A DNA stretch of 64,000 nt from Gammaproteobacteria bacterium (GTDB lineage Bacteria; Pseudomonadota; Gammaproteobacteria; Enterobacterales; Permianibacteraceae): positions 372,001 to 436,000 of the forward strand of contig JACPFT010000005.1 of NCBI GenBank assembly GCA_016182845.1, in the 5' to 3' direction. The notes below the pieces were generated by a model, which was not told the DNA's origin, did not search any database, and saw only the letters and a program-made list of their open reading frames with translations. Positions 21,596 through 34,171 of this stretch are shown here, one piece after another; position 1 is the stretch's first letter; every line of letters begins with the position of its first letter. The translations under genes were made by a program, and so were the position numbers.

Positions 21596-22846
21596 ATGGC
21601 AGTCACTTCCGCGCAATTCCACGGCATCGTCGATGTCCTGGCCCGAGTCCTGAGCTTCAACCACCCGGCCGACGCCGTGCTCTCCCATTTCTTCCGCGAG
21701 CGTCCCAAGCTGGGCGGCCGCGACCGCCATGTCATCGCCGAGACCGTCTATGCCGCCCTGCGCCGCTTCGAATTCCTCACCGCCGTGGTGGGCGAGGCGC
21801 CCAACCCGCGCCGCTATGCCATCGCCGCGCTCCTGCGTTTGATGGGGCATAACCTGCGCGAGATCGCCGAACACCTGAAGGATTCCGAGAAAGAGCTGGC
21901 CGGCGCCATCAAGGCCCGCCAACCCGAGCTCTCGCCCGTGCAACAGGCCGAGCTGCCGGAATGGCTGGTGGAGGGCATGGGCCTGGCCGAAGACGAGATG
22001 CTGGCCCTGGGCCGCGCCCTGCAGCACGCTGCCCCCCTGGACCTGCGCATCAACAGCCTCAAGACCAAGCGCGAGGCCGTCTTGGAGCGCTTCGCTGCCG
22101 AGGGCATTGCCGCCGAAGCCACGCCGCACTCGCCTCTGGGCGTGCGCCTGGCGGAGAAAATGCCCCTGCAGAAACACGCTCTGTTCACCGAGGGTCTGGT
22201 GGAAGTCCAGGACGAGGGCAGTCAGCTGCTGGGCCTGATGTTGGGCGCGCGGCGTGGCGAGATGGTGGTGGACTTCTGCGCCGGCGCCGGCGGCAAGACC
22301 CTACTCCTGGCCGCCGCCATGGCCAATAGCGGCCGCGTCTATGCCTTCGACGTGGCCGAGAAGCGCCTGAACAACCTGGCGCCGCGCTTGAAGCGCTCCG
22401 GCCTGTCCAATATTCAGCCGGTGCTGATCACCAGCGAGACCGATGCCCGCGTCAAGCGCCTGGCCGGCAAGATCGACCGCGTCCTGGTGGATGCGCCCTG
22501 TTCGGGGATGGGCACCCTGCGCCGCAACCCGGATCTGAAATTCCGCCAGTCGCCGGAGTCCGTGGCCGAGCTCAACGCCAAGCAGACGGCTATCTTGAGC
22601 GCGGCCGCCAGCCTGCTCAAACCCGGCGGGCGCCTGGTCTATGCCACCTGTTCCCTGCTGCCCAGCGAGAATCAGGCCGTGGTCCAGGCCTTCTTGGCCG
22701 CTCATCCCCAGTTCGAGCTCTTGCCGGCGGGCGAGGCCCTGGGCCGGCTCAACGAGGGCCTGGACATGGGCGACTACCTCCAGCTCTGGCCCCACCGCCA
22801 TAACACCGACGGCTTCTTCGCCGCGGCACTGGTGCGTAAGCCATAA
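21596..22846 (+). CDS. RsmB/NOP-family rRNA (cytosine-5) methyltransferase
   Basis: This 416-residue protein has an N-terminal NusB-like helical region (HFFRERPKLGGRDRHVIAET) and a C-terminal SAM-dependent methyltransferase domain. SAM motif I is VDFCAGAGGKTLLLA. Both cysteines of the m5C mechanism are present: C302 in VDAPCSGMGTL and C352 in YATCSLLPSEN, the catalytic and release cysteines. It is shorter at the N-terminus than E. coli RsmB, so the exact rRNA target is uncertain. It diverges from the YkgJ gene. Confidence 0.87.
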   Translation: MAVTSAQFHGIVDVLARVLSFNHPADAVLSHFFRERPKLGGRDRHVIAETVYAALRRFEFLTAVVGEAPNPRRYAIAALLRLMGHNLREIAEHLKDSEKELAGAIKARQPELSPVQQAELPEWLVEGMGLAEDEMLALGRALQHAAPLDLRINSLKTKREAVLERFAAEGIAAEATPHSPLGVRLAEKMPLQKHALFTEGLVEVQDEGSQLLGLMLGARRGEMVVDFCAGAGGKTLLLAAAMANSGRVYAFDVAEKRLNNLAPRLKRSGLSNIQPVLITSETDARVKRLAGKIDRVLVDAPCSGMGTLRRNPDLKFRQSPESVAELNAKQTAILSAAASLLKPGGRLVYATCSLLPSENQAVVQAFLAAHPQFELLPAGEALGRLNEGLDMGDYLQLWPHRHNTDGFFAAALVRKP

Positions 22847-22923
22847 ACCCCATCATGGGCTGATATTCGCGCGCCCTGGGCTACACTCAGGAATGAGTCA
22901 TCTCCCGGCCCAGGCGCGCGTTC

Positions 22924-24162
22924 ATGCTCAAGAAGATTCAGGTCAGTCAGCTGCGTCTGGGCATGTTCGTCAACGAGTTCTGCGGCTCGTGGATGGAACA
23001 CCCCTTCTGGACCACTAAGTTCCTCCTCAAGAATCCCAAGGACCTGGCGCGCATCGGCGAGAGCGGCATCACCGAGCTGTGGATCGACACGGACAAGGGC
23101 GCGGACCTGGCGGCCGATCAGGCTGGGCAGGGCGTGGCGCAGGCCGAGGCGGAGCGGCGCATCGAGGCTGCCCTGGCCGATGCCGTCAAGGCGCCGGCCG
23201 AGATTCCGCAGCGGGTCTCCTTGGAGGTGGAAGTGCAGCGCGCCGCGAAGATCTGCGCCAAGGCCAAGGAGGCCGTGGCCAGCATGTTCCAGGAAGCGCG
23301 CATGGGCAAGACCGCCCAGGCCGAGCAGTTCCTGCCCATGGTGGAGGAGATCTCCGCTTCCGTGCTGCGCAATCCCGGCGCCCTTATCAGCCTGGCCCGT
23401 CTCAAGAACCAGGATGAATACACCTATATGCACTCGGTCGCGGTCTGTGCCCTGATGGTCGCGCTCGCCCGCCAGCTGGGCATGAACGAGGAGGACACCC
23501 GCGAGGCCGGTATCGCCGGCCTGCTGCACGATCTCGGCAAGGCCATGATCCCCCTGGAAATCCTCAACAAGCCGGGTAAGCTGACCGATGCCGAGTTCCA
23601 GACCGTCAAGAGCCACCCCCAGGAAGGCTTCAAGCTCTTGGTGGACAGCGACCAGGTCAGTGCCATACCCCTGGACGTGGTCCTGCATCACCATGAGAAA
23701 GTCGATGGCAGCGGCTACCCCCATCGCCTTGCCGGTGAGCAAATCACCCTCTTCGCCAAGATGGGGGCCGTCTGCGACGTCTACGATGCCATCACCTCCA
23801 ACCGGCCCTACAAGGCCGGCTGGGATCCGGGCGAGTCCTTGCGCAAGATGACCGAATGGGCCGCCGGCCATTTCGACGATCGGGTGTTCAAGGCCTTCGT
23901 GAAGAGCGTGGGCATCTACCCGGTCGGCTCCCTGGTGCGCCTGGAGTCCGGCCGCCTGGCCGTGGTCATGGAGCAGAGTGAAAAGTCCCTGCTCGTGCCC
24001 ATCGTCAAGGTTTTCTATTCGACCAAGGCCAAGCGTCATCTGATGCACGAGCTGCTCGACCTTTCCAAACCCTCCGCTCAGGACAAGATCGTGAGCTGGG
24101 AGTCGCCGGAGCGTTGGGGAATCGCCAACATGAATGAGATATGGGGCTGCGTGGTGCCCTGA
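22924..24162 (+). CDS. HD-GYP c-di-GMP phosphodiesterase with N-terminal DUF3391
   Basis: This 412-residue protein has an N-terminal DUF3391 (about 1-130), an acidic linker, and a full HD-GYP domain. Catalytic residues are visible: HSVAVCALMV, HDLGK with H202 D203, HHEKVDGSGYP with GYP at 264-266, and VYDAITSNRPYK. It should degrade cyclic-di-GMP to GMP in the cytosol. It lies 77 bp after the rRNA methyltransferase gene and is closed by a terminator. Confidence 0.93.
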   Translation: MLKKIQVSQLRLGMFVNEFCGSWMEHPFWTTKFLLKNPKDLARIGESGITELWIDTDKGADLAADQAGQGVAQAEAERRIEAALADAVKAPAEIPQRVSLEVEVQRAAKICAKAKEAVASMFQEARMGKTAQAEQFLPMVEEISASVLRNPGALISLARLKNQDEYTYMHSVAVCALMVALARQLGMNEEDTREAGIAGLLHDLGKAMIPLEILNKPGKLTDAEFQTVKSHPQEGFKLLVDSDQVSAIPLDVVLHHHEKVDGSGYPHRLAGEQITLFAKMGAVCDVYDAITSNRPYKAGWDPGESLRKMTEWAAGHFDDRVFKAFVKSVGIYPVGSLVRLESGRLAVVMEQSEKSLLVPIVKVFYSTKAKRHLMHELLDLSKPSAQDKIVSWESPERWGIANMNEIWGCVVP

Positions 24163-24173
24163 AACGCGGGCAT

Positions 24174-24202
24174 GAAAAAGGCGGGCATCGAGCCCGCCTT
24201 TT
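24174..24202. terminator. Bidirectional terminator between HD-GYP and leucine dehydrogenase genes
   Basis: The 11-bp stem AAAAGGCGGGC/GCCCGCCTTTT has A-run and T-run flanks, so it can work for both convergent genes. Confidence 0.9.
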
Positions 24203-24219
24203 CACAGATGCCCTAACGC

Positions 24220-25254
24220 TTACTTCTTGGCATTGGCGATACGCTGACGGGCCAGCTCGTCGGCGATCACATGGGTCGGACGACCATCCTTGACGGCGGT
24301 GGCGAAGATCTCGGACAGGGTGTTGTAGATCTCTTCGACCTTGCGCTTGGAGGCTTCCGAGCTGTAGTTCTCTTCGAAGGACACGTTGATGATGCCGCCG
24401 GCATTGATGACGTAGTCCGGGGCATAGAGCACGCCGCGGCGGGTCAGTTCGTAGCCGTGGCGATCCTCGGCAAGCACGTTGTTGGCGGCGCCGGCGATGA
24501 TCTTGGCCTTGAGCATCTTCAGGGTTTCGTCGTTGACGGTGGCGCCCAGGGCGCAGGGCGCGTAGACGTCCACGTCCAGGCCGTAGATGGCGTTGATATC
24601 GACGGCGGTGGCGCCGCAGTCGGCGACGACCTTCTCGACGGCTTCCTTGTTGATGTCGGTGACGAAGAGCTTGGCGCCTTCGCTGGCCAGGTGCTTGGCC
24701 AGGTAGTAACCCACGTGGCCGGCGCCCTGCAGGGAGATGCTCACGCCGTCCAGGTTGTCGCGGCCCAGCTTGTGCTTGACGGCGGCCTTGATGCCCAGGT
24801 AGCAGCCGTAGGCGGTGTACGGGGACGGATCGCCGGACTTGCCTTCCAGACCCAGCACGTGCTTGGTTTCCTTGTGGACGATGGCGATGTCGGCCGGGCT
24901 GGTGCCCACGTCTTCGGCGGTCACGTAACGGCCGGAGATGGACTCGACGAAGCGGCCGAAGGCGCGGAACAGCTCTTCGGACTTCATGGTCTTGGAGTTG
25001 CCGATGATGACGGACTTGCCGCCACCGAAGGGCAGGCCGGCCATGGCGTTCTTGTAGGTCATGCCGCGGGACAGACGCAGGGCATCGACCAGCGCGCCTT
25101 CATCGGTGTTGTATTCCCACATGCGGCAACCGCCAACGGCCGGGCCCAAGGTGGTGTCGTGGATGGCGATGATCGCCTTCAGGCCACTCTTGGTGTCGCT
25201 GCAGAACACGATTTGTTCGTGATCGTCGTAGGCGCGCAGGTTGAAAACGGACAT
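24220..25254 (-). CDS. ldh: Leucine dehydrogenase (Glu/Leu/Phe/Val dehydrogenase family)
   Basis: This 344-residue NAD-dependent enzyme deaminates branched-chain amino acids. The conserved segments KAIIAIHDTTLGPAVGG, LPFGGGKSVIIG (catalytic Lys region), TAEDVGTSPADI, SLQGAGHVGYYLAKHL (NAD fold), APCALGATVND and GAANNVLAEDRHG are all close to Bacillus leucine dehydrogenase. The ATG at 25254 (MSVFNLRAYDDHEQIVFC) is preferred; GGAG lies at the right distance upstream, whereas a TTG at 25269 would swallow it. It is downstream of the aldehyde dehydrogenase on the same strand, with a repeat between. Confidence 0.93.
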   Translation of the reverse strand: MSVFNLRAYDDHEQIVFCSDTKSGLKAIIAIHDTTLGPAVGGCRMWEYNTDEGALVDALRLSRGMTYKNAMAGLPFGGGKSVIIGNSKTMKSEELFRAFGRFVESISGRYVTAEDVGTSPADIAIVHKETKHVLGLEGKSGDPSPYTAYGCYLGIKAAVKHKLGRDNLDGVSISLQGAGHVGYYLAKHLASEGAKLFVTDINKEAVEKVVADCGATAVDINAIYGLDVDVYAPCALGATVNDETLKMLKAKIIAGAANNVLAEDRHGYELTRRGVLYAPDYVINAGGIINVSFEENYSSEASKRKVEEIYNTLSEIFATAVKDGRPTHVIADELARQRIANAKK

Positions 25255-29867: not shown

Positions 29868-30902
29868 TCAGCCGGTGTTGTCCAGTAGATTGTATTTCTT
29901 AAGCAGGCCGCGCAGCTGGTGGTAGGTGACGGACAGTAGCTCGGCGGTCCGTTTCTGGTTGTACTGGGCCTGGAGCATGGCTCCCTTGATGAGGCCCACC
30001 TCGAAGTTCTCCACCAGGCTCTCGAAGGGCACCGGAAATTCGACGGGGCTGCTTGTTGGCATGGCCGTCGCGGGCTGGCTGGCGGCCGGGGCGGTGGACT
30101 TGCCGGTGGGGCCGGTGCGGGGTCGCCAGGGCGAGGCGAAGGGGTCGAATTCGATGCCCTTGATCATGTCCTCGGCGCCCGTGCGGTAGACGGCGCGCTC
30201 CACGACGTTCTTCAGTTCGCGCACATTGCCGGGCCAGGCATAGTCCAGCAGCTGGCGCTCGGCATTCTTGCTGAAGCCGGCGAAATAATCGCGCTTGAGC
30301 TCGCGGGTCATGGCCATGGCGAAATACTCCGCCAGCAGCAGGATGTCTTCGCGCCGTTCGCGCAGGGGCGGCAGGGTGATGACATCGAAGGCCAGGCGGT
30401 CCAGGAGGTCGAAGCGGAAGCGCCCGCTCTCGGCCAGCTGGGGCAGATCCTCGTTGGTGGCGGCGACCAGGCGCGTGTCGATCTTGACCGATTTGCTGCC
30501 GCCGACGCGCTCGAACTCGCCGTATTCGATGACGCGCAGCAGTTTCTCCTGGACGCGCATGGACGTCGTGGCCAGCTCGTCGAGAAACAGCGTGCCCTTG
30601 TCGGCGATCTCGAAGCGGCCCTCGTGGCGCTTGCTGGCGCCGGTGAAGGCGCCGGCCTCGTGGCCGAATAGCTCCGATTCCAGGAGACTCTCGGTGATGG
30701 CCGCGCAGTTCATGGTCACATAGGTCTGATCCCAACGTGGGGACAGGTAGTGCAGGCGCGCGGCGATCAGCTCCTTGCCGGTGCCCCGTTCGCCGACGAT
30801 CAACACCGGCTTGTCCAGCGGAGCGACCTGGGAGACATGCTCCAGGACCTGGAGAAAACTCTCGGATTGTCCGATGAGATTGTCGGGCTGGCGCTGCACC
30901 AT
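29868..30902 (-). CDS. pspF: Psp operon sigma-54 activator PspF
   Basis: This 344-residue bacterial enhancer-binding protein lacks a receiver domain and starts directly with the AAA+ domain (NLIGQSESFLQVLEHVSQ), as PspF does. Walker A is GERGTGKE, the sigma-54 contact loop is HEAGAFTGA and the arginine finger region is FRFDLLDRLAF. The C-terminal Fis-type helix-turn-helix ends QKRTAELLSVTYHQLRGLLKKY. A low-complexity Pro/Ala/Thr linker (about 255-290) is longer than in E. coli. It is divergent from psp genes and should activate them, with PspA as its inhibitor. Confidence 0.95.
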   Translation of the reverse strand: MVQRQPDNLIGQSESFLQVLEHVSQVAPLDKPVLIVGERGTGKELIAARLHYLSPRWDQTYVTMNCAAITESLLESELFGHEAGAFTGASKRHEGRFEIADKGTLFLDELATTSMRVQEKLLRVIEYGEFERVGGSKSVKIDTRLVAATNEDLPQLAESGRFRFDLLDRLAFDVITLPPLRERREDILLLAEYFAMAMTRELKRDYFAGFSKNAERQLLDYAWPGNVRELKNVVERAVYRTGAEDMIKGIEFDPFASPWRPRTGPTGKSTAPAASQPATAMPTSSPVEFPVPFESLVENFEVGLIKGAMLQAQYNQKRTAELLSVTYHQLRGLLKKYNLLDNTG

Positions 30903-31041: not shown

Positions 31042-31058
31042 TTGGCACGAAGAATGTA
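31042..31058 (+). promoter_or_regulatory. Sigma-54 promoter of the psp operon
   Basis: The sequence TTGGCACGAAGAATGTA fits the -24/-12 consensus TGGCACG-N4-TTGCW: GG and G are at the right spacing, and the -12 element has GT instead of GC. It faces the psp genes and lies next to pspF. Confidence 0.85.
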
Positions 31059-31104
31059 TATCCCTCAGTGTGTAGCAACCACCACCATGACCCAAGGAAA
31101 TATC

Positions 31105-31401
31105 ATGATCCGTAAGATGAACAACCAGTCGGTGTACCGCATGACCACGACCTTGGTCATCGGCGGAATGATTATGGCTCTTGCCATGCAGCCGGCCCGC
31201 GCCAGCGAGCTGAACGAGGCGATTGCCGCGGCGGTGGGTGAAGCACTGGTTGAGCAGGGCCAGAACGCCATGCACAATATCAGCCAAGACGTGCTCAGCA
31301 ATACCGACTGGGCGGGAACGGCTAAGCAGCTGATGGAGCAGGTGACGGTCGAGGAAGAACCGGCCACACCGGCCGCGGACACCCTGATTGCCGACCGCTA
31401 A
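31105..31401 (+). CDS. Small exported protein, first gene of the psp operon
   Basis: This 98-residue protein starts at ATG 31105 behind AAGGA; earlier in-frame starts would place the coding region inside the sigma-54 promoter. The N-terminus has a positively charged stretch (MIRKMNNQSVYR) and a hydrophobic core (LVIGGMIMALAMQPARA) ending in a likely ARA-SE signal-peptidase site. The mature part (about 65 residues) is acidic and helical, with no cysteine. I do not recognise a family. It sits 47 bp after the sigma-54 promoter and 31 bp before pspA, so PspF probably controls it. Confidence 0.75.
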   Translation: MIRKMNNQSVYRMTTTLVIGGMIMALAMQPARASELNEAIAAAVGEALVEQGQNAMHNISQDVLSNTDWAGTAKQLMEQVTVEEEPATPAADTLIADR

Positions 31402-31432: not shown

Positions 31433-32104
31433 ATGGGCATTTTCTCGCGCTTCGCCGACATCGTGAACGCCAACCTCAACGCCTTGCTGGACAAGGCCGA
31501 AGATCCGGAAAAGATGGTTCGCCTGATCATCCAGGAGATGGAGGACACCTTGGTGGAAGTGCGTACCGCTTCGGCGCGCACCATCGCCGACAAGAAGGAA
31601 TTGGAGCGCAAGCTCGCCTACCTGGAACAGGAGATCGCCGACTGGGAAGCCAAGGCCTCCCTGGCCTTGAGCAAGGATCGGGAAGACCTGGCTCGCGGCG
31701 CCCTGGTGGAAAAGGCCAAGATCGCTGAGGTGGCCGCGACGGTGCGCCACGAACTGGAGCTGTTGAACGGCACTCTGTCCAAGCTATCCGACGAGATCGG
31801 TCAGTTGCAGGACAAGCTCAAGGACGCCAAGGCTCGCCAGGCGGCCCTGATGATGCGCCACAAGACCGCAGAAAGCCGTTTGAAGGTGCGCAGCACCATC
31901 CAGGGCGGCGGCAGCGGCGATGCGGTGTCCAAGTTCGAGCGTTACGAACGCAAGCTGGACAACCTGGAAGCCGAAGTGGATGCTTTCGACCTGGGTAAGA
32001 AGTCGTCGCTGGCCGATGAGATCGCCAACCTGGAGGCCGAGGACAAGGTGAGCCAGGAGCTGGAAGCCCTGAAGGCCAAGATCAACCAGCAGAACAACAA
32101 CTAA
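31433..32104 (+). CDS. pspA: Phage shock protein A
   Basis: This 223-residue protein is a PspA/IM30 family coiled-coil protein, starting MGIFSRFADIVNANLNALLDKAEDPEKM with the amphipathic N-terminal helix that binds membranes. Long helices run to about residue 220. It polymerises at stressed inner membranes and also inhibits PspF. A good ribosome-binding site (TAGGAG) precedes it. Confidence 0.97.
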   Translation: MGIFSRFADIVNANLNALLDKAEDPEKMVRLIIQEMEDTLVEVRTASARTIADKKELERKLAYLEQEIADWEAKASLALSKDREDLARGALVEKAKIAEVAATVRHELELLNGTLSKLSDEIGQLQDKLKDAKARQAALMMRHKTAESRLKVRSTIQGGGSGDAVSKFERYERKLDNLEAEVDAFDLGKKSSLADEIANLEAEDKVSQELEALKAKINQQNNN

Positions 32105-32115
32105 GGAAGTGCGTT

Positions 32116-32352
32116 ATGGAAGTTACAGAAGCCATTGGCATCCCTCTGATCGTATTCATGGTTTTCGTGGCACCGATCTGGGTCATCATGCACTACCGAA
32201 CCCTGGGCAAGAAGAGCCAGGGGCTGTCGGTCGAGGAGCATACCAAGCTGCAGCAGCTGAACCAGGTTGCCGAACAGATGAGTTCGCGCATCGAGACCCT
32301 GGAAAAAATCCTGGACGCCGAAACGCCGGATTGGAGAAAGAAATATGAGTGA
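32116..32352 (+). CDS. pspB: Phage shock protein B
   Basis: This 78-residue protein has one transmembrane segment (GIPLIVFMVFVAPIWVIMHY) followed by the cytosolic coiled coil ending RIETLEKILDAETPDWRKKY. PspB and PspC relay membrane stress to PspA. It is 11 bp after pspA and overlaps pspC by 8 bp. Confidence 0.95.
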   Translation: MEVTEAIGIPLIVFMVFVAPIWVIMHYRTLGKKSQGLSVEEHTKLQQLNQVAEQMSSRIETLEKILDAETPDWRKKYE

Positions 32353-32818
32353 GGATTCTGTCTCCCCCCGTCGCACCCTGTATCGCGACACCCGGAACGG
32401 CAAGATCACCGGCGTCTGCGCCGGGCTGGCGGATTACTTCGGCTTCGAGCGCTGGGTCGTGCGCATCATCTGCCTCTCTCTGGTGGTGTTCATGGGGCCG
32501 ATGCCCGTCGTCGCCTACTTCGTGTTGACCTTCATCCTGGACAAGAAGCCGGGACATCCGGAGAGCATGACCGAAGCGCGGATGCGCGAGGGCATCCAGA
32601 AGGGCATGAACGGCATGCGCGGGGCCAAGGCGCCGGCTAACCAGAAGTATCAGCCGGATCCGCTCACCGTCTGGCGTTCCGGCACGGCGCCCAGCCAGGT
32701 GCTGGCCACGATAGAGGGGAGCTTTTCCAAGCTGGAGCTGCGCCTGCGCGATCTGGAAAGCTTCGTGACCTCCAAGCGTTTCCATCTGGAGCGCGAGTTT
32801 CAGGAAATCCGGCGTTAA
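32345..32818 (+). CDS. pspC: Phage shock protein C
   Basis: This 157-residue protein has the PspC domain: TLYRDTRNGKITGVCAGLADYFG, then a membrane segment (WVVRIICLSLVVFMG) and a second hydrophobic stretch. An added C-terminal tail of about 80 residues ends in a coiled coil (LRDLESFVTSKRFHLEREFQ). E. coli PspC lacks this exact tail. The start overlaps pspB. Confidence 0.93.
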   Translation: MSEDSVSPRRTLYRDTRNGKITGVCAGLADYFGFERWVVRIICLSLVVFMGPMPVVAYFVLTFILDKKPGHPESMTEARMREGIQKGMNGMRGAKAPANQKYQPDPLTVWRSGTAPSQVLATIEGSFSKLELRLRDLESFVTSKRFHLEREFQEIRR

Positions 32819-32856: not shown

Positions 32857-33078
32857 ATGCCTTGGTTTGCGAATGTTGCCGTCGCGGGCATCGTGATGTG
32901 GGCTGTGGTGGAAGTCGTCAAGATGGTGCTGACCCATCGGAAGGAACGCGATGCCGGCGCCCAGCTTGGAGCGGAAAAGGATGCTCAGCTGGCGGCCCTG
33001 GAGGAGCGAGTGCGCATCCTGGAAGCCATCGTCACCGACAAATCCTATGATTTGAAACAGAAAATAAACTCCTTGTAA
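32857..33078 (+). CDS. Small PspB-like membrane protein, last gene of the psp operon
   Basis: This 73-residue protein has one N-terminal transmembrane helix (WFANVAVAGIVMWAVVEVVKMVL), then a charged linker and a coiled coil ending RVRILEAIVTDKSYDLKQKI. The topology and the C-terminal words resemble PspB and the tail of PspC in the same operon. It begins 38 bp after pspC behind AAGGAGTAGAGG. I know of no named family for it; it is a candidate accessory Psp component. Confidence 0.72.
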   Translation: MPWFANVAVAGIVMWAVVEVVKMVLTHRKERDAGAQLGAEKDAQLAALEERVRILEAIVTDKSYDLKQKINSL

Positions 33079-33247: not shown

Positions 33248-34171
33248 ATGGCAACGCTGAGCAAGTTCCTCGCGGTGATCGACAAGCTGGATGAGGCGGG
33301 GACCGTCCTGGCCCGCGCGGCCGGGCTCGCCGAGGCCCATCAGGCGCGGGTGGACGTGCTCCTGACCCTGCACGAACCCTCCTTGGAACTGGGCGATCTC
33401 TGGGGCGCCGGTCAACTGGAGAGCCTGAGGGATAATTATGTCGCCGAGCACCGGCAGAAGCTGGAGCCCCTGCTGGAACCGCTGCGCGGGCGAGGCTTGG
33501 GCGCGGAGCTCTACGCCGAGTGGGATTCCACACCCTTCATGCCTATCATCCGGGCGGTCCAGGCACGCGCTTACGATCTGGTGATCAAGGCGGCCAAGGC
33601 CCACTCGCGCCTCACGACCTTTTTTTACACGCCGACGGACTGGCATCTGCTGCGCAAGTGCCCATGCCCCGTGCTCATGACCAAGGGGCCCGCATCCGGA
33701 CCGGCGCGACGCATCCTGGCGGCGGTGGAGCCGGTGGCCAGCGATGCCGAGCATGCGGGCCTGAATCACGCCATCCTGGACATGGCGCAGTTCCTGGCCG
33801 GCAAGCTGGGGGCCGAGCTCCATGTCATCAATGCCTTCTCGGTGATTCCGGTGGGCACCGCCTTCGATGGCACGGGGATTTATCACGAGGACTATGTGGC
33901 CAGCGTGCGCGAGCTTCACCAGAAGCGCCTGGCCGAGCTGGTACAGCCCTACGGCGTGGCGGAGGCCCGGGTGCATCTGCGCCAGGGCGTGCCGGCCGAT
34001 GTGATCCCGGAATTTGTCGCCGAGGAGAACATCGAGCTGGTGATTCTGGGCACGCTGGCGCGCAGCGGCATGGCGGGGATCTTCATCGGCAACACGGCGG
34101 AGAGCGTGCTCGACGAGTTGCATTGCGATGTCTTGACCGTGAAGCAGCCGGGCTTTGTCGCACCGGCCTGA
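33248..34171 (+). CDS. Tandem-domain universal stress protein (UspE-like)
   Basis: This 307-residue protein has two universal-stress-protein domains (about 1-150 and 155-305). The first ends HLLRKCPCPVLMTKG. The second carries the nucleotide-binding signature ending GTLARSGMAGIFIGNTAESVLDELHCDVLTVK, close to the G-2x-G-9x-G(S/T) pattern. The ATG at 33248 has AAGGGTGG in front; ATGs at 33224 and 33230 would lose this spacing. It is likely a cytosolic stress protein. Confidence 0.88.
   Translation: MATLSKFLAVIDKLDEAGTVLARAAGLAEAHQARVDVLLTLHEPSLELGDLWGAGQLESLRDNYVAEHRQKLEPLLEPLRGRGLGAELYAEWDSTPFMPIIRAVQARAYDLVIKAAKAHSRLTTFFYTPTDWHLLRKCPCPVLMTKGPASGPARRILAAVEPVASDAEHAGLNHAILDMAQFLAGKLGAELHVINAFSVIPVGTAFDGTGIYHEDYVASVRELHQKRLAELVQPYGVAEARVHLRQGVPADVIPEFVAEENIELVILGTLARSGMAGIFIGNTAESVLDELHCDVLTVKQPGFVAPA

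Follow-up and report, generated by a model that had tools for sequence, protein, structure and literature searches.

A predicted exported protein gene, pspX, appears to head psp operons in several gammaproteobacterial groups and to be missing from those of E. coli, Vibrio and Shewanella

The open reading frame at 31105-31401 on the forward strand of the window, by which we mean the whole stretch of 64,000 nucleotides analysed here, most likely encodes an exported protein of the PspF regulon that has not been described before. It specifies a small protein of 98 residues and is the first gene of a psp operon; we call it pspX, a working name for this report only. The DNA itself shows the gene, the homologous family to which it belongs, a location immediately behind a sigma-54 site and repeated occurrence in psp units of two kinds, and on sequence comparison we regard the placement of PspX in this family and regulon as highly probable.

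The operon in the window consists of a divergent pspF followed by pspX, pspA, pspB and pspC, and the NCBIfam equivalog models for the four known proteins are all exceeded at their cut-offs. The enhancer-binding activator PspF (29868-30902, minus strand) scores 525 bits against TIGR02974 (cut-off 443.55) and carries the Sigma54_activat and HTH_8 domains; on the plus strand lie pspA (31433-32104; TIGR02977, 306 bits), pspB (32116-32352; TIGR02976, and PF06667 at 1.3e-30) and pspC (32345-32818; TIGR02978, 125 bits, and PF04024 at 8.5e-18). The last gene of the run (32857-33078, plus strand) encodes 73 residues that weakly resemble PspB and the C-terminal part of PspC, by matches under the cut-offs, and just 3' of the operon a universal stress protein is encoded at 33248-34171, with Usp matched over two stretches. 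The sigma-54 promoter, TGGCACGAAGAATGTA (31043-31058, plus strand), reaches 16.6 of 18.6 in a simple consensus scoring that none of 200 base-shuffled upstream sequences equalled; its -24 GG is at 31044-31045 and its -12 G at 31056, and a T replaces the consensus C after the latter. As this site stands 62 bp before the pspX ATG, a spacing similar to that to the first ATG in relatives, and the end of pspX is 31 bp from the start of pspA, the first-pass annotation was right to place the gene directly after a sigma-54 promoter and before pspA, in the promoter-proximal position of a psp operon.

The protein consists of MIRKMNNQSVYRMTTTLVIGGMIMALAMQPARA followed by SELNEAIAAAVGEALVEQGQNAMHNISQDVLSNTDWAGTAKQLMEQVTVEEEPATPAADTLIADR, with the predicted cleavage point between the two. 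Read by eye, residues 1-33 (31105-31203, plus strand) form a predicted Sec signal peptide, with R/K in the n-region, the h-region TTTLVIGGMIMALAM and the sequence ARA ending at residue 33, after which cleavage would occur before SE. The mature part of about 65 residues is acidic (12 D/E versus 2 K/R), and a single-sequence AF2 model places helices at residues 7-27, 30-66 and 69-80 with a mean pLDDT of 73, rising to 80-88 over the middle part of the protein; their arrangement carries little meaning because the pTM is only 0.38. These features agree with the signal peptide and acidic, helical mature part that had been described from the sequence. The gene looks coding, with a GC3 of 0.81 versus 0.85 for pspA, and the Shine-Dalgarno sequence AAGGAA (31094-31099, plus strand) lies 5 nt 5' of its ATG. 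The absence of a recognised family also held up, in that no Pfam or NCBIfam model is matched above its cut-off; Pfam DUF2742 and NCBIfam TcpD scored far under theirs and were set aside as identities for PspX, and a profile search of the PDB gave no credible match.

A single-sequence search of 59 relatives with PspX returned no homologue because the family is too divergent, and a comparison based on the slot that the gene occupies, the interval between pspF and pspA, was therefore needed. PspX relatives fill this first slot in four further orders. An exported slot ORF with the motif [IL]xxQGxxA[LMV] is present in genomes G306, G531, G356 and G270, the start codon in G531 having to be GTG, and slot, signal peptide and QG motif go together at loci L072, L075, L076 and L084. 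Among 30 psp loci in the order of G270, 15 have a QG protein in the slot, seven a diverged exported ORF, five an unrelated exported ORF and three none. Aligned with the QG members, the motif common to the relatives, IxxQGxxAL, reads LVEQGQNAM in the window protein (residues 48-56; 31246-31272, plus strand), which has L and not I at residue 48; Q51, G52 and A55 are invariant among QG members.

Membership in the family can be judged from profiles built without the window protein. With 15 slot proteins as the profile and 370 genomes of the class searched, PspX is the best match in the whole of its own genome (24.2 bits, E=1.2e-4; next 0.0077), and when a slightly larger set is run against the 848 ORFs of the window it comes out at 1.2e-5, followed by a match at 0.083. 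A profile made only from members of the G270 order gives 0.016, against 0.017 for the next match, so that membership leans on the distant members L072, L075 and L076; the link is nevertheless firm because the position is shared as well. The family is very divergent, the window protein being 13-24% identical to the aligned members, and conservation is concentrated in the middle of the mature protein, the C-terminus being variable. Among homologous gene pairs dN/dS is 0.11-0.29 in six and 0.50-0.75 in three, which suggests that selection on related pairs is mostly purifying. Exported proteins of the QG family are also encoded away from psp genes at L224 and L228 (both G270) and L225 (G531), with no convincing sigma-54 site upstream of any of the three; the neighbours of L225, identified by eye, are genes for a multi-span membrane protein and an HlyD-like protein. 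The presence of such unlinked paralogues in two genomes favours a trans-acting protein, and the low dN/dS in six pairs, the motif in distant orders and the copies outside psp units together argue that the protein itself matters.

Within its own GTDB order pspX is rare among the psp loci sampled. These comprised 143 further loci containing pspA, all from that order or close to it (29 + 34 + 80, the last set mostly from named organisms such as Rheinheimera, Alteromonas, Shewanella and Vibrio), and in 139 of them the pspF-pspA interval, mostly about 200 bp, holds no plausible exported ORF. The four exceptions, L003 and L008 of family f4 and L039 and L040 of family f8, have an interval of 426-535 bp containing a short ORF whose product includes a hydrophobic helix; in L039 and L040 this ORF overlaps pspA by 4 bp. 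These ORFs, from G005/G030 and G173/G215, belong to the same PspA clade as the window, and only that of L003 scores, weakly, against the family profile; we treat them as possible PspX homologues. G002, a genome of the same family as the window, has no pspX, and its sigma-54 site is separated from pspA by a 220 bp leader in which there is no ORF, which looks like gene loss. The gene is thus absent from G002 and from nearly all sampled psp operons of its own order.

In a PspA tree the window, G002, f4 and f8 form one clade (88/88), next to which stand 41 loci that lack a first gene (84/81), and mapping the first-gene label on this tree takes 9 changes, compared with 28 in shuffles. The simplest reading of this pattern, a tentative one given long branches and modest supports, is that the slot is old and disappeared from the branch to which Rheinheimera, Alteromonas, Shewanella and their relatives belong. 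E. coli, where the operon is described as starting with pspA (PMC9239133), would fall in the same branch.

The position of the promoter follows the presence of the gene. In psp loci with a QG protein the first ATG follows the sigma-54 site by 45-69 bp and pspA follows it by more than 330 bp, with base shuffles equalling its score in 0-8% of cases, whereas in psp loci without pspX the site lies a median of 72 bp (quartiles 63-87) before pspA; the promoter distance therefore appears to be fixed to the first gene, whichever gene that is.

Outside the QG family the slot is occupied in other ways. In genus g328 of family f189 (L085, L177, L179, L186 and L187) the slot protein is exported and has VTYxxPVTY repeats, and at some of these loci a gene for a membrane protein follows it. 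Loci from other classes of the same phylum, probably Alphaproteobacteria, show something similar: 15 of 20 have, after the sigma-54 site, an ORF of unrelated sequence whose product is exported or spans the membrane once. Starting the operon in this way may therefore extend beyond the PspX family. Eight of the first ORFs there (L264-L267, L269, L271, L276 and L279) are 49-81 residues long with a hydrophobic stretch, and several of them terminate in LA or IA; five (L261, L263, L273, L277 and L280) look tail-anchored, and those of L262 and L270 resemble TonB C-terminal domains. We do not claim the first ORFs of L261-L280 for the PspX family, as they share its position and its export or membrane character and lack the motif.

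A second setting for the family emerged from a profile that included the window protein. Run over 326 genomes of its own order, this profile picked up homologues away from the psp operon in two families, f15 and f6, the latter grouping with a Shewanella in the PspA tree, and once the first of these had been added to the profile seven more were recovered, one of them in f7. At 12 loci, in Shewanella-like and other genomes, the homologue adjoins dusA (identified by tblastn), begins 55-80 bp after a sigma-54 site and is followed by a PspC-like ORF, which is PspC by Pfam in both cases tested; in G071 it lies 13 bp before a second pspA. With a profile of psp-linked proteins only, the exported ORF ranks first in every such locus (E 3e-8 to 0.024, set size 850). 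The dusA-linked homologues keep the Q of the motif and not the G, and we are less sure of the placement of the weakest, L299, L300, L302 and L304; profile matches inside long ORFs (L285, L289, L301 and L303) were treated as chance. Across psp- and dusA-linked copies the sigma-54 site is 45-80 bp upstream. Outside the window, the same genome has a dusA-linked unit of its own on contig C22 (L291, at about 21721-24888), with the end of dusA, the sigma-54-like site TGGCACGGTTTTCGAA, pspA2 and a PspC-domain ORF, pspC2, and no exported gene. In the dusA units of family f15 (L282-L284 and L287) a multi-span ORF of 108-122 residues, with no Pfam match, comes after the PspC-like gene, where E. coli has pspG.

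Two points raised by the first-pass annotation can be set against these comparisons. Conservation beyond the one strain is indeed found, in the relatives of four further orders, the profile match in the own genome and the dusA-linked homologues; homologues do not always precede pspA, as 12 precede a PspC-domain gene beside dusA and three others, without a convincing sigma-54 site, lie elsewhere.

CpxP, ZraP and Spy are small, exported, helical proteins of envelope-stress regulons and resemble PspX in each of these respects, by analogy only: the partner of CpxP and ZraP is a histidine kinase whereas that of PspX would be PspC, and PspX does not match the Pfam LTXXQ model of CpxP, Spy and ZraP at E<=1. 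The zraP gene is at an RpoN target, and E. coli dusA is followed by pspG, also a sigma-54 target (PMC8743547). As a second PspF target beside dusA, pspG shares both its type of promoter and its genomic place with the dusA-linked homologues; however, PspG sits in the inner membrane as an integral protein for which two helices are predicted (PMC2763126), in contrast to PspX, which is predicted to be soluble after cleavage, and no Pfam or NCBIfam model of the PspG or PspD families matches PspX at E<=1. The statement that E. coli has no periplasmic Psp partner needs correcting because PspE, a periplasmic rhodanese exported with a signal sequence, is a product of its psp operon (PMC2593051), though one unrelated to PspX. 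Both are small exported products of psp operons, but PspE is a rhodanese encoded by the last gene of pspABCDE, with a partly independent transcript, and the Pfam and NCBIfam rhodanese models do not match PspX at E<=1.

What might PspX do? The best explanation as a whole, to which we would give an even chance, is that it is a periplasmic protein that PspF induces and that works together with membrane proteins of the PspC type. We infer transcription by PspF, export, action in the periplasm and partnership with PspC: when the psp promoter fires, PspX would be made first through predicted PspF/sigma-54 transcription, would be exported by Sec with removal of its signal peptide, and would then act at the periplasmic face of the inner membrane with PspC-type proteins, perhaps as a partner that gives feedback or sets their sensitivity, or else as a co-effector, as CpxP is to CpxA or ZraP to ZraS. 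PspC is the most likely partner because a PspC-type gene is, besides the promoter, the most constant neighbour in both the main operon and the dusA unit. Counting against the model are the great divergence of the family, the missing G in the motif of the dusA-linked homologues, the lack of the gene in the dusA unit of the window's own genome and the paralogues with no convincing sigma-54 site. Most psp operons of the order also do without PspX, which makes it dispensable for the core response. Partnership with PspC as the mechanism is a tentative proposal that we hold at less than even. A broader version, in which PspX is an ancestral exported component of proteobacterial psp systems, first in the psp operon or in a dusA-PspC unit, that disappeared from the psp operon in the line leading to the model organisms and served as the periplasmic arm and sensitivity setter of the PspC sensor, is possible and on balance unlikely.

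Much of the same evidence could be read differently. PspX might be a direct effector, its amphipathic mature helix acting without PspC, either on the outer leaflet of the inner membrane or within the periplasm, and so limiting the leakage of protons or the damage done by mislocalised secretins; its production ahead of the rest of the operon, paralogues outside psp units and a short helix with a conserved small-residue motif, where the AF2 pLDDT is 80-88, would suit this, while the repeated pairing with PspC-like genes in the dusA unit suggests a specific partner and the strong acidity disfavours binding to anionic lipids, and we consider a direct effector rather unlikely. SecM, VemP and MifM are small exported cistrons just 5' of a gene of envelope function, as secM is of secA, and the position of pspX right before a stress gene, like the unrelated short exported or membrane ORFs that fill the slot in other classes, recalls such leaders, whose translation monitors export and would here control that of pspA. 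PspX differs from them in that its C-terminus is not conserved, conservation lying in the middle of the mature protein, and in that the pspA Shine-Dalgarno sequence shows no pattern of sequestration: over 30 loci its pairing with the end of the ORF is inconsistent, with no consistent change in accessibility. Together with the paralogues outside psp units, this makes an export-sensing leader improbable.

It is harder still to credit that a first cistron with a signal sequence serves to hold the polycistronic psp mRNA at the translocon, with PspA, PspB and PspC made at the membrane and the mature part a by-product. That export or membrane character persists while the sequence families differ by lineage (QG, VTY-type and the types of other classes) is what such tethering would predict; the conservation of the mature QG motif across distant orders and in unlinked paralogues, with dN/dS mostly low, speaks against it. 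A chance or decaying ORF without function, which the empty 220 bp leader of G002 might bring to mind, seems very improbable in view of the homologues in several orders, the motif, the mostly low dN/dS, the pspA-like GC3 and the fixed spacing from the sigma-54 site.

As the head of psp operons in several groups of Gammaproteobacteria, PspX may be a component that has escaped notice in a much-studied stress response. The passages searched in two large surveys of Psp systems (PMC9239133, PMC11237479) mention no gene like pspX. How PspB and PspC sense envelope damage is a long-standing question for which E. coli and Yersinia have supplied the models. If the older system did have an exported partner, its absence from E. 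coli would explain why it was missed, and a signal from the periplasmic side would become testable in the organisms that retain PspX.
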